64,000 nt of DNA. Source: Gallionellales bacterium GWA2_60_18 (lineage in GTDB: Bacteria; Pseudomonadota; Gammaproteobacteria; Burkholderiales; Gallionellaceae). Of this stretch, positions 47,374 to 52,255 are shown piece by piece (the stretch's first letter is position 1; each line of letters starts with the position of its first letter). The notes under the pieces were generated by a model. The model was given only the letters and a program-made list of their open reading frames with translations. It had not been told where the DNA came from and searched no databases. Location of the stretch: positions 154,934-218,933 of the forward strand of contig MGWS01000033.1 in NCBI GenBank assembly GCA_001801105.1, given 5' to 3'. The translations under genes were made by a program, and so were the position numbers.

Positions 47374-47391
47374 AAAGCACGTCCTGTGCCA
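47374..47391 (-). promoter_or_regulatory. Sigma-54 (-24/-12) promoter for the molybdoenzyme operon
   Basis: The minus strand reads TGGCACAGGACGTGCTTT. The -24 element TGGCAC is perfect and the -12 GC falls exactly ten bases after the GG (consensus TGGCACG-N4-TTGCW; only the first T of TTGC differs). It points towards the Fe-S subunit gene, giving a leader of about 80 bases. A sigma-54 regulator with GAFTGA is encoded just beyond the divergent genes. Confidence 0.75.
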
Positions 47392-47457
47392 GGATAACTA
47401 TGTGCCTGTTATACATACGCTAAGAATAATCGCGGCCTCGTGTCACGCTTGCCGAAC

Positions 47458-47505
47458 ATTACCTTTTCGCCACGCTATGACACCAAGCCATTACCAAACG
47501 GTAAT
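47458..47505. promoter_or_regulatory. Upstream activator site candidate for the sigma-54 promoter
   Basis: ATTACC-AAAC-GGTAAT (47490-47505) is a perfect palindrome; an isolated half site ATTACC lies at 47458, exactly 32 bp away (about three helical turns). Both are 80-130 bp upstream of the -12/-24 promoter, the usual position for enhancer sites of NtrC-type regulators. The rest of the gap 47283-47685 is AT-rich without a recognisable gene. Confidence 0.55.
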
Positions 47506-47685
47506 ACCAATACACGACAACAACACTATGAATTATTTGGCGGTTCATGCCTTTCGTTCAAACAGCAAGATTCCTCACATACATTCGGAATGACAGTTTC
47601 CCGCAACGGATTATTTGGTTAAAAACATTGTCTGCAATTACATATTGCTCAATAATCGGCGCTCTTTGCGGGCGGAGAACTTTGC

Positions 47686-49414: not shown

Positions 49415-50877
49415 TGCACTTCAAGAATCTCAGCCTGCGCTACAAGATCCCGTTGCGCGTCGCGGTGCTGGCGATCGGCACCGCCGTCGTGCTGACCTCG
49501 ACGCTGGTCTATCGTGGCATCGAGGATCTGCGCGCCAACCTGATCGACAATGCCGACCGCATGGGGCGCGTCATCGCCAACACGCTGACCGAGCCGATGC
49601 TGCACGACGATGTATGGCGCTCGTTCGAGATCATCAATACCCCGTTCCGCAGCCCCGAGACCGGCAAGACCGGCCAGGAAGCCGGGCACATCCTGATCCT
49701 CAATGTCTCGAACACCATTTACGCCTCGACCCAGCCGGAGCGCTTCCCCATACTGAAAGACCCGGCGAGCATCGATCCGCGCTATGACGAGTTGTTGAAA
49801 GCGCTGCCGGATTTCCAGAGCTCAGGGACTGCCGTGGTGGAACCGCGCAAGTCCGACGACCTGTTCCTGCTGATCCCGATCCAGTCGGACGGGCTGCGCA
49901 TCGGCACGCTGGTGATGAGCTATCCCAAATCCCCATTCATCGAGCGCTCCTACGGCCTGATCCGGGATGCCGCGCTGATCACCCTGCTGGTGCTCGCCGT
50001 ATTGCTGCCGCTCGGCGTGTACTGGGGACACCGGATGGCCGAACCCCTGCTGCACCTCTCCGGCGCGATGCGCAACATGGCGCCGCAACTGCCGGATCTG
50101 GACAACCTCCGGATCGAGGAATCCAGCGATGAGATCGGGCAGCTCGGCAAGGCGTTCAAGCGCATGCTGGCCGAACTCAGGGAAAAGGAGCAGTTGCAGC
50201 AGCAGGTCATCGCTTCGGACCGGCTCGCCGCGATCGGGCGGCTGGCCGCCGGCATCGCCCACGAGATCAACAATCCGCTGGGCGGCATGCTCAACGCCAT
50301 CAGCACCTTCAAGCGCCACGGCGCGCAGGATGCGTTCACGCTGAAGACCATGTCCATCCTGGAACGCGGCCTGATCCAGATCAAGGAGACGGTGGCCGCG
50401 CTGCTGGTGGAGGCCAAGGCGCGCAGCCGCCCGTTCGACCGCGACGACATCGAGGACATCCGCACGCTGATCCAGGCCGATGTGCAATCCAAGCGCGTCA
50501 ACTTCTCCTGCGAATGCGACATCGGCGACGCCCAGCCCGTCCCCTCCACCCTGGCGCGCCAGGTCATCATCAACCTGCTGCTGAATGCGCTCCATGCGAC
50601 CCAGCCGCACGGTCACGTCCATTTACGCATCCACCGCGAAGACGGCAATCTGGTGATCGAGGTCTCCAACGACGGCTCCTACATCCCGCCGGAAAAGGTG
50701 GCGTTCCTGTTCGAGCCGTTCACTTCGCTCAAGGAGACCGGCAGCGGCACCGGCCTCGGCCTGTGGGTGATCTACCAGATCGTGCAGCAATTGGGCGGCC
50801 TGATCGCCGTGCAGAGCGACGAGCATGAAACCCGCTTCACCGTCCAGCTGCCGTTGCAGGAAAACACAGGAGCATGA
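49411..50877 (+). CDS. Sensor histidine kinase (AioS/ArxS-like position)
   Basis: A 488-residue kinase: membrane helix (about 14-36), periplasmic domain (about 37-185), second helix (about 187-206), HAMP-like linker, then His284 in GIAHEINNPLGG, N-box (QVIINLLLNALHAT) and GSGTGLGLWV of the ATPase domain. It overlaps the PhnD-like gene by 4 bp and is followed by its regulator at 8 bp. The periplasmic domain is the expected docking site for the binding protein. Confidence 0.9.
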   Translation: MMHFKNLSLRYKIPLRVAVLAIGTAVVLTSTLVYRGIEDLRANLIDNADRMGRVIANTLTEPMLHDDVWRSFEIINTPFRSPETGKTGQEAGHILILNVSNTIYASTQPERFPILKDPASIDPRYDELLKALPDFQSSGTAVVEPRKSDDLFLLIPIQSDGLRIGTLVMSYPKSPFIERSYGLIRDAALITLLVLAVLLPLGVYWGHRMAEPLLHLSGAMRNMAPQLPDLDNLRIEESSDEIGQLGKAFKRMLAELREKEQLQQQVIASDRLAAIGRLAAGIAHEINNPLGGMLNAISTFKRHGAQDAFTLKTMSILERGLIQIKETVAALLVEAKARSRPFDRDDIEDIRTLIQADVQSKRVNFSCECDIGDAQPVPSTLARQVIINLLLNALHATQPHGHVHLRIHREDGNLVIEVSNDGSYIPPEKVAFLFEPFTSLKETGSGTGLGLWVIYQIVQQLGGLIAVQSDEHETRFTVQLPLQENTGA

Positions 50878-50884
50878 AGGAACC

Positions 50885-52255
50885 ATGAACAAGCTCACCC
50901 AACCCCATCTATGCCTGATCGAGGATGACGAGATCATGGGCGAATCGCTGTGCGACCGTTTCGCGCTGGAAGGATTGCGCGTCGACTGGCAGCGCACCGG
51001 CGCGGAAGGACTGCGCGCCGTTACCGGCAAACACTACGACCTGATCATCAGCGACATCCACCTGCCCGACCTGAACGGCGAAGAGGTGTTCGAAAGGCTG
51101 CTCGCGACCGGACAAGCGCTGCCGCCGTTCATCTTCATCACCGGCTATGCCTCGATCGACCGCGCGGTGCGGCTGCTCAAGCAGGGCGCCGCCGACTACA
51201 TCAGCAAGCCCTTCGACCTCGACCAGCTGGTCGAAAAGGTCTGCCAGCTCTGCCCGCCGCCGCCGACCGCCCCTGCAGCCGGGGACGAGCGCCACACCCT
51301 CGGCATCTCCCCGGTCATGCGCGAGATCGAGGCCAGCATCCCGCGCCTGGCACGCCTGGCCAACACCATCCTGATCACCGGCGAATCCGGCAGCGGCAAG
51401 GAGCATGTCGCGCAGCTGATCCATCAGCACGCGCGTGCGGAACAAGACAGCCCCTTCGTGGCGGTCAACTGCGGCGCGATCACCGAGACGCTGCTCGAAT
51501 CCGAACTGTTCGGCTATGAGAAGGGCGCCTTCACCGGCGCCGCGCGCACCCGCAAGGGCGTGTTCGAGCAGGCGCACGGCGGCACGCTGTTCCTCGACGA
51601 GATCGGCGAGATGCCGCTGTCCATGCAAGTCAAACTGCTGCGCGCCATCCAGGAGCGCCGCATCGTCCGCGTGGGCGGCGAGACGCCGATACCGGTGGAC
51701 GTGCGCCTGATCTGCGCCACCAACCGCGACCTGAAGGATATGGTCGAGGAAGGCAGCTTCCGCGAGGACCTGTATTACCGTATCCACGTCATCCGCCTGC
51801 GTGTGCCGCCGTTGCGCGAACGCAAGGAAGACATCCCCTGGTTCGCGCAGATATTCCTGCGCCAGTGTTGCGCCCAGCACGGCGACGAAGCACGCTCGCT
51901 GACGCCTTCCGCCGAACGCGCCCTGCTCGACTATGCCTGGCCCGGCAACCTACGCGAACTCAAGCACAGCATCGAGCGCGCCTGCATCATGTCGCCGCAT
52001 CCCGCGCTGGGGCCGGACGCATTCTTCGACGACGGGCATCATGGCGCGGCAGATACAGTTCACGGCGAAGCGCCCGCCGGCAGCGGCAACCTCGCCGCCT
52101 ACCTGCGCGAATGCGAGCGCAGGTTCATCCTGCAAACGCTGGAACGCAACCAGTGGCACCTCGGCAACACCGCCGCCGCACTGGACATCAGCCGCAAGAA
52201 CCTGTGGGAGAAGATGAAAAAGCTCGACATACAGACTGACAAGGATGGGGAGTAG
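50885..52255 (+). CDS. Sigma-54-dependent response regulator (AioR/ArxR-like position)
   Basis: A 456-residue NtrC-type activator: receiver with EDDE and Asp57 (LIISDIHLPD), AAA+ domain (GESGSGKE, GAFTGA sigma-54 loop, GGTLFLDEIGEM), C-terminal Fis-type helix-turn-helix (LGNTAAALDISRKNLWEKMKKL). The start at 50885 has GAAGGA upstream; the open frame before it is kinase antiphase. The likely target is the sigma-54 promoter at 47374. The stop TAG is supplied by the following REP element. Confidence 0.92.
   Translation: MNKLTQPHLCLIEDDEIMGESLCDRFALEGLRVDWQRTGAEGLRAVTGKHYDLIISDIHLPDLNGEEVFERLLATGQALPPFIFITGYASIDRAVRLLKQGAADYISKPFDLDQLVEKVCQLCPPPPTAPAAGDERHTLGISPVMREIEASIPRLARLANTILITGESGSGKEHVAQLIHQHARAEQDSPFVAVNCGAITETLLESELFGYEKGAFTGAARTRKGVFEQAHGGTLFLDEIGEMPLSMQVKLLRAIQERRIVRVGGETPIPVDVRLICATNRDLKDMVEEGSFREDLYYRIHVIRLRVPPLRERKEDIPWFAQIFLRQCCAQHGDEARSLTPSAERALLDYAWPGNLRELKHSIERACIMSPHPALGPDAFFDDGHHGAADTVHGEAPAGSGNLAAYLRECERRFILQTLERNQWHLGNTAAALDISRKNLWEKMKKLDIQTDKDGE

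Follow-up and report, generated by a model that had tools for sequence, protein, structure and literature searches.

Known arsenite oxidation systems and the locus studied

Surveys of arsenite oxidation now use two markers, AIO (aioXSR-aioBA) and ARX (arxB2ABCD with arxXSR). According to the available text of the papers cited here and below, the molybdenum (Mo) of AioA has no protein ligand and AioB is a Rieske protein (PMC5908839, PMC10100899), and ArxA carries the motif XGRGWG near its catalytic pocket (PMC6549141). We analysed a 64-kb stretch of DNA from Gallionellales bacterium GWA2_60_18 (the window), in which genes for a periplasmic binding protein (X), a sensor histidine kinase (S) and a sigma-54-dependent response regulator (R) are divergent from an operon for an electron-transfer subunit (B), a membrane anchor (C) and a molybdoenzyme catalytic subunit (A) (Table 1). 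The enzyme is widespread in Beta- and Gammaproteobacteria, where it is often annotated as thiosulfate or polysulfide reductase. It appears to be an unstudied respiratory enzyme under an arsenite alarm system, often among arsenic genes, and may represent a third kind of arsenite-oxidising enzyme. On balance we favour its being an arsenite:quinone oxidoreductase of the periplasm, separate from both AIO and ARX, i.e. an arsenite-induced respiratory molybdoenzyme of a third arsenite oxidase class. The wider proposal seems to us evenly poised, namely that this class is phylogenetically independent, has Asp for Cys at its first iron-sulfur (Fe-S) cluster, has come repeatedly under AioX-type control and makes arsenite oxidisers of many denitrifiers in which neither AIO nor ARX is detected.

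The trio and its divergence from a B-C-A operon had been proposed in an earlier note on this DNA and are confirmed by family scans and coordinates. X and S overlap by 4 bases (ATGA), and 7 bases separate the S stop from the ATG at 50885, where the R start was set (a longer R frame begins at 50825).

The window system resembles ARX in its divergent X-S-R genes, a GTTAC-type dyad, an A exported by twin-arginine translocation (Tat), a four-cluster B, a membrane C, a TorD-like chaperone and a polyferredoxin, as well as in Arg and His residues close to the Mo cysteine. It differs in the gene order B-C-A, in a GR[ND]RTGG-type motif in the window clade where ARX has XGRGWG, in Asp for the third Fe-S cysteine in that clade, in the additional DUF309, HisA-like and h133 genes, and in a C of 285 aa versus about 410 aa in the ARX of pSCD. 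With AIO it shares the regulatory trio, an X pocket identical at ten positions, a dyad with a sigma-54 promoter, and an adjoining molybdenum cofactor (Moco) gene (moeA-type, annotated glp, at the NT-26 operon), whereas the Mo cysteine, four-cluster B and membrane anchor of the window system set it apart. ARR differs in that (R/K)GRY is missing from the window A, the ArrX pocket is two positions off and the window A has an Asp as Fe-S ligand. The Psr/Phs enzymes likewise have a PsrC/NrfD-type anchor, a four-cluster B and a Cys-ligated Mo, but their clade is apart and the pocket residues are not in common; we know of no control by a PhnD-type protein, histidine kinase and response regulator for Psr/Phs. 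In ttrRSBCA the B-C-A order is the same, and the window B and C have TtrB and TtrC as their best curated matches; however, its regulators TtrS/TtrR have no separate adjoining X gene, and A differs in clade and pocket.

Catalytic subunit

The earlier note had held that A does not obviously belong to AioA and is only distantly like ArxA, and the data agree: the AioA model TIGR02693 gives 29 bits against a cut-off of 359, and A is 26–28% identical to five ArxA proteins. In the tree, the window clade (17 rows) has a support of 100/99 and lies apart from ARX (11 rows, 100/100) and also from ArrA, PsrA/PhsA (97/94), TtrA and SoeA-like rows. It thus forms a clade of its own, inside no characterised clade among those compared, with AnrA, SrdA and SrrA outside the tree and AioA, DmsA and L128 omitted for their long branches. 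The rows A57_L125, arr36_L114 and L068_A (a 42% match, poorly aligned) were dropped, the ArrA reference was a partial PDB sequence, and the SoeA-like rows are known as such only by a missing Tat signal and the A-B order.

Several identities were considered for A and rejected: 1) ArxA, for the separate clade and for the alignment, which has FGRDRTGG at 151–158 and no XGRGWG near the pocket; 2) ArrA, for the separate clade and the absence of (R/K)GRY from the alignment; 3) AioA, for the TIGR02693 score and a B of the four-cluster ferredoxin type, not Rieske; 4) PsrA/PhsA, for the separate clades and a score of 355 bits with the best model, PhsA (cut-off 694); 5) TtrA, for 131 of 1750 bits and a position off the TtrA branch; and 6) SoeA, for the Tat signal of A and the separate SoeA-like rows. 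The Soe-like candidate for arsenite oxidation in Thioalkalivibrio, described without a Tat signal in the available text (PMC6620896), is a different enzyme. Novel MopB lineages with PsrA/PhsA-like best matches exist (PMC10100899), and the A clade may be among them. No description of the enzyme or its cluster was found in the literature, in a search that reached few subscription papers.

The nearest fold of A is ArrA. Its presumed Mo ligand is C179, with R153, H175 and K184 in the pocket, so that the ArrA-type Arg/His/Cys/Lys positions are kept; that Lys varies in ARX. The corresponding ArrA residues R165, H189 and K198, which we take to be arsenate contacts, differ in PsrA, and R165 and K198 differ in PhsA. 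The third cysteine of the first Fe-S cluster is replaced by Asp (Asp61 in the window) in 120/120 cases. In one relative (L080_A) the Mo cysteine is not aligned, and this protein may be misaligned.

Conservation of the trio and operon

Loci were collected by scanning genome contigs with 19 relatives, and the 80 used are the best of 336 confirmed. They comprise 64 close loci, with A at no less than 69% identity, and 16 distant loci (A below 69%); many end early. The divergent X-S-R and B-C-A genes occur together in 40 of the 42 close loci with at least 5.5 kb upstream of B (the exceptions being L005 and L042), so the arrangement is not due to chance. This neighbourhood survey, called for by the earlier note, found the trio kept beside the enzyme; with A inside none of the characterised clades compared, neither outcome named there as refuting was seen. 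Trios of the same family also adjoin ARX, AIO and two further enzyme types (t3 and t4, described below). Where at least 6.5 kb lies downstream, the genes for TorD, h131, h250 and the polyferredoxin were each found in 45/45 close loci, h133 in 42/45 and the rhodanese-like gene in 39/45. Among the distant loci, which mostly lack a trio directly upstream, four alphaproteobacterial ones (L059, L060, L061 and L073) have X and S about 8 kb downstream. Named hosts include Thauera, Aromatoleum, Hydrogenophaga (H. taeniospiralis is L031) and Polaromonas, as well as Sulfuricella, Sulfuritalea and Thiobacillus.

Sensor protein X

The nearest PDB relatives of X are NT-26 AioX (2.4e-63) and then ArrX (1.4e-41). 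Pockets were compared at ten positions that the AioX structure paper names (88, 106, 131, 161, 162, 163, 192, 210, 212 and 240), seven of which it lists as pocket residues. The string of the window X, YCYSNSHDYP, equals that of NT-26 and Paracoccus AioX, arsenite-binding cysteine included. Seven sorted ArxX proteins from ARX operons have YCYSNTHDFP (5) or YCYSNTHDYP (2), ArrX has YCYSFSHDLP, two positions off the window X, and the phosphonate-transporter PhnD used as a control has YGYSASHARS. The pocket cysteine also occurs in two Rhizobium binding proteins, whose role is unknown and which differ at three other sites. In the available text of PMC5908839, AioX and ArxX bound arsenite at 177 and 311 nM, and in calorimetry antimonite, arsenate, molybdate, phosphate, phosphonate, selenate, sulfate, tetrathionate and thiosulfate were all unbound. 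ArrX bound arsenate, and phosphate more weakly, and according to the authors the sensors bind the substrate of the cognate enzyme (PMC5908839). By sequence, the window X would bind arsenite via its cysteine. The suggestion of the earlier note that the system senses an oxyanion or a sulfur compound is narrowed towards arsenite by the AioX-type pocket and the dyad; sensing of a sulfur compound is weakened, because the pocket matches AioX, which left sulfur oxyanions unbound, and because the promoter dyad is of the arsenite-oxidase type. In a tree of X proteins, a main clade of 23 enzyme-adjacent X (99/96) is accompanied by smaller groups, and three Comamonadaceae X join NT-26 AioX (96/90, long branches).

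Promoter and control of the operon

A sigma-54 site and a dyad precede B in the window (Table 1), and both were surveyed in the 54 upstream regions with a divergent X (the window and 53 loci). The sigma-54 site was found with no mismatch in 15 regions, with at most one in 37 and with at most two in 52, the corresponding controls being 0.04, 0.82 and 5.84 by Markov resampling and 0, 1 and 8 on the opposite strand. TTAC-N6-GTAA is present in 48/54 regions (mean 0.14 and maximum 3 in 200 Markov resamplings) and GTTAC-N6-GTAAC in 35/54 (resampled mean 0), mostly about 70–140 bases upstream of the -24 element. The counts come from 54 mutually related regions and should not be read as independent trials. 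Published counterparts are the AioR footprint GTTCGGATTTCCGAAC (PMC5335332) and the RpoN promoter of NT-26 aioBA, TGGCACAACGATTGCA (PMC6011840), both in the available text.

The dyad also precedes arx, perfectly in Herbaspirillum and imperfectly in pSCD, as well as t3 and t4, and NT-26 aioB is preceded by a GTTC form of it. With start positions guessed for these other operons (arx, t3, t4 and aio), no sigma-54 site was found before Herbaspirillum arx and none nearby for the t3 locus L101. Given the conserved sigma-54 site, the AioR-like dyad and the similar dyads before these other operons, R very probably controls B-C-A, and we strongly infer control of the operon by X-S-R as a whole.

Arsenic genes nearby and in host genomes

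Azoarcus sp. KH32C carries the cluster on its plasmid pAZKH, where it adjoins arsR-like, arsC, arsD, arsA and acr3 genes. With the KH32C proteins as queries, arsA, arsC, arsD or acr3 was found in 13/80 loci, many with short flanks (L005, L006, L007, L012, L015, L018, L024, L027, L033, L034, L052, L059 and L075), and not at L013, L048 or L057. The acr3 gene itself is present in 7/80, versus about 0.4 of 80 expected by chance in such a 23-kb stretch (our own estimate from its genome-wide presence). Between the ars operon and the trio, KH32C encodes a small hypothetical protein that is partially matched at the corresponding position in Aromatoleum buckelii (L081:13870-14265 and L013:4236-4403).

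Among the 80 hosts, ArxA at 57% identity or more was found in 8 and an ArrA-like protein (36%) in 2 at E 1e-100. The background frequency of ArxA in a class-wide sample, which is not lineage-matched, is 2/274. AioA exceeded the model cut-off in 2/50 plus 7/30 hosts, with over 1000 bits in two of these nine; the weaker matches may be IdrA-like. Any of ARX, ARR-like or AioA was thus found in 15/80 hosts and none was detected at these limits in 65/80, incomplete assemblies included. Hosts of the cluster in which neither AIO nor ARX was detected include Thauera aminoaromatica S2, Aromatoleum buckelii and Hydrogenophaga taeniospiralis. Herbaspirillum ST 5-3, Sulfuricella STA_15 and Rhodocyclaceae L.E.AP.42 have ArxA and A on one contig, no more than about 15 kb apart; in G053 the distance is about 42 kb, on a contig presumed to be that of L051; in the ARX-bearing hosts G051, G037 and G071 the two are on different contigs. 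G068 has arxABC and then, within 1.4 kb, B and A of this clade (57%). A single contig of Herbaspirillum sp. ST 5-3 carries the cluster at about 108 kb, ARX at 123 kb, acr3-arsADC-arsR at 139–144 kb and AioBA at 154 kb.

Proposed function and alternative explanations

As we picture it, periplasmic X would bind As(III) by C114 in its AioX-type pocket and activate S, as homology suggests; S would phosphorylate R, and R would bind the dyad observed upstream of the sigma-54 promoter and turn on B-C-A plus the helper genes. A, exported by Tat with a Mo cofactor that TorD and the flanking moa/mob/moe/mod genes would provide, would oxidise As(III) to As(V) in the periplasm. Electrons would pass from the Asp-bearing first Fe-S cluster of A through the four B clusters and the NrfD-type C to the quinone pool, which would feed oxygen or nitrate respiration. 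The enzyme would work like ARX yet come from a separate clade. Its substrate and direction are inferred, direction being the weakest step.

If this is true, surveys have overlooked a route that roughly equals ARX in frequency: of 274 genomes sampled class-wide, 4 have the enzyme (at least 55% identity), one of them being the sample centre, picked for having it, and 2 have ArxA (58%; partial 52%). Arsenic-cycling potential would then be reassigned for Thauera, Aromatoleum, Hydrogenophaga, Rhodoferax and relatives, and the Asp at the first cluster, for which an Asp-ligated [4Fe-4S] or a [3Fe-4S] cluster is predicted, would allow spectroscopy to test clearly what sets the electron-transfer potential in the enzyme family.

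Several observations weigh against arsenite oxidation. No arsA, arsC, arsD or acr3 was found in the flanks of 67/80 loci, many of which are short, and the KH32C queries detected no ars genes in the 64-kb window; acr3 is present somewhere in the genome, mostly as one copy, in 63/80 hosts. ARR-like scores were barely above the E limit of 1e-100, and some may be missed, and the class-wide background sample is not lineage-matched. Only 1 of the 11 distant loci with enough sequence has X-S-R directly upstream. The last pocket position is T, not P, in the X of L008, L012, L015, L052, L071, L072 and the distant L069. In the available text of PMC5908839, conserved pocket residues by themselves do not set selectivity. 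Finally, the enzyme-adjacent X proteins are not one clade, at least 2 separate groups being needed and 4 appearing on the tree as drawn. Either the enzyme has gained arsenite-type sensors more than once or sensors have been exchanged, and in both cases a functional link is a better fit than common ancestry by itself.

The ArrA-like pocket could, on its residues, equally serve arsenate reduction by a respiratory arsenate reductase, or a bidirectional enzyme, induced by arsenic oxyanions under anoxia. The closest fold and the kept Arg/His/Cys/Lys positions, including the Lys that varies in ARX, speak for it, and B with an NrfD-type C could run either way. We nevertheless think it unlikely, as the X pocket is that of AioX and not of the ArrX pattern, (R/K)GRY of ArrA is missing, and the hosts include Thauera, Aromatoleum, Hydrogenophaga and Polaromonas, which are aerobes or denitrifiers.

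Arsenite oxidation is also preferred to an arsenite-induced enzyme that acts on thiolated species (e.g. monothioarsenate) or on arsenite and sulfur together. In its favour are a secreted, weakly rhodanese-like protein in the operon, several hosts whose names mark them as sulfur oxidisers (Sulfuricella, Sulfuritalea and Thiobacillus), and the coexistence with ARX in 8/80 genomes, which suggests another substrate there. Against it, the similarity to rhodanese is weak, 6/45 loci showed no such gene and the other operon genes with a family match give no sulfur pointer, which makes this explanation rather improbable.

Still less likely, in our view, is oxidation of antimonite or reduction of antimonate by an enzyme perhaps akin to Geobacter AnrA. 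The host H. taeniospiralis belongs to a species that reportedly includes an anaerobic Sb(III) oxidiser, and antimonite oxidation by AioAB has been reported (cited in PMC11521347). However, the nitrate-dependent NaoABC has a Rieske subunit, NaoC, and groups near NapA, unlike the window enzyme (PMC11521347, available text), and the 120 listed relatives from the deltaproteobacterial branch, mostly listed without names, include no Geobacter-named protein. NaoABC was also rejected as the same enzyme on its published description, a scan of ten proteins from the operon and trio having shown no Rieske protein.

A thiosulfate or polysulfide reductase with incidental arsenic links, as favoured by the best curated model (PhsA) and by source names reading thiosulfate reductase or polysulfide reductase chain A, is very improbable in view of the separate A clade, the differing residues at R165/H189/K198 in PsrA and R165/K198 in PhsA, and an arsenite-type sensor and dyad conserved across loci.

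Gene content around the operon

Table 1. Features of the locus, with positions in the 64-kb window and the basis of each assignment
Feature	Position	Strand	Basis or remark
tatB	31210-31548		
Molybdate transporter ModA + ModB	ModA match inside frame 33676-34818; ModB 32996-33673	-	TIGR01256, TIGR02141 over cut-off
MogA-type molybdopterin adenylyltransferase	34473-35081 (frame limits)	-	NF006932 284 bits, cut-off 158
MoeA molybdotransferase	35018-36256	-	NF007960 5.8e-116, below cut-off
MobA-like guanylyltransferase	36347-36952 (frame limits)	-	TIGR02665 9.7e-32, below cut-off
MobB	36953-37483 (frame limits, start codon inside)	-	TIGR00176 130 bits, cut-off 76
MoaE	37459-37968 (frame limits, start codon inside)	-	NF007959 2.8e-25, below cut-off
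MoaD-like protein	37977-38216	-	Named by eye from position and sequence; no NCBIfam match
MoaC	38213-38734	-	TIGR00581 195 bits, cut-off 141.5
h133, small conserved protein	38744-39145	-	No convincing family match (Pfam)
Polyferredoxin, distant ArxB2 relative	39173-40270	-	27% to ArxB2, 3.5e-20
Weakly rhodanese-like, secreted-looking protein	40273-40785	-	No Pfam match for the window copy
h250, weakly HisA/HisF-like, operon signature gene	40937-41689	-	PF00977 1.3e-3, below cut-off
h131, DUF309 protein, operon signature gene	41696-42091	-	PF03745 7e-7
TorD-like chaperone	42093-42932	-	Family scans
A, Mo-bis(molybdopterin guanine dinucleotide) catalytic subunit with Tat signal	43055-45679	-	Family scans, alignment
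C, NrfD/PsrC-type membrane anchor, presumed quinone-reacting subunit	45698-46555	-	PF03916 2.3e-28
B, electron-transfer subunit with 16 cysteines (sufficient for four [4Fe-4S] clusters)	46566-47282	-	Family scans
Sigma-54 (-24/-12) promoter TGGCACAGGACGTGCT	47376-47391 (read 47391-47376)	-	109 bases ahead of B start codon
Dyad ATTACCGTTTGGTAAT, TTAC-N6-GTAA	47490-47505 (read 47505-47490)	-	About 113 bases upstream of -24 element
MoeB, molybdopterin-synthase adenylyltransferase	47686-48492	+	NF004281 312 bits, cut-off 266; first gene before X
X, periplasmic binding protein of AioX type with pocket cysteine C114, presumed to sense arsenite	48473-49414	+	Phosphonate-bd 1e-56
S, sensor histidine kinase	49411-50877	+	HAMP, HisKA, HATPase_c family matches
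R, sigma-54-dependent response regulator, AtoC/AioR type	50885-52255	+	Response_reg, Sigma54_activat, HTH_8

The MoeB/ThiF-type gene that the earlier note placed between promoter and sensor is present, with NF004281 over its cut-off, but it is a local feature found before X in 4/64 close loci (L001, L002, L003 and L070); 3 of these belong to the 42 loci whose upstream sequence is long enough. It completes the Moco supply set around the operon, which explains its insertion. A role for MoeB as a sensor component was rejected, as the gene is rare at that place and suits Moco supply.

The KH32C copy of h250, a gene present in every close locus surveyed downstream, matches PF00977 at 3.6e-5. For the rhodanese-like protein, the KH32C copy matches PF00581 at 0.006, below cut-off. 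By eye, an active-site cysteine loop is not obvious in the window protein, and a TCE-x-G-x-P segment close to the C-terminus is common to the window and KH32C copies. Just past R, a frame at 52327-52851 looks, by eye only, like a REP-associated transposase.

Related enzymes beside similar trios

One genome of the L057 family encodes two tandem window-type enzymes (L169:5053-13329), with 45% and 56% identity to the KH32C A. In t3 (L098:8060-16347, L101:2-8394), an X-S-R trio is divergent from another Mo enzyme beside the cluster in Accumulibacter 66-26 and Sulfuritalea; the gene set consists of A, B, a small cytochrome-c7-like protein and TorD, with GTTAC-N6-GTAAC dyads, and the enzyme groups with ARX/ARR in the tree (97/92). 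In t4 (L106:8189-17090, L143 and L147), a B-C-A or B-A molybdoenzyme with about 40% identity to the window A lies beside X-S-R. Its aligned rows have Trp at ArrA K198, and those of L143 and L147 also have Asp at the third Fe-S cysteine.

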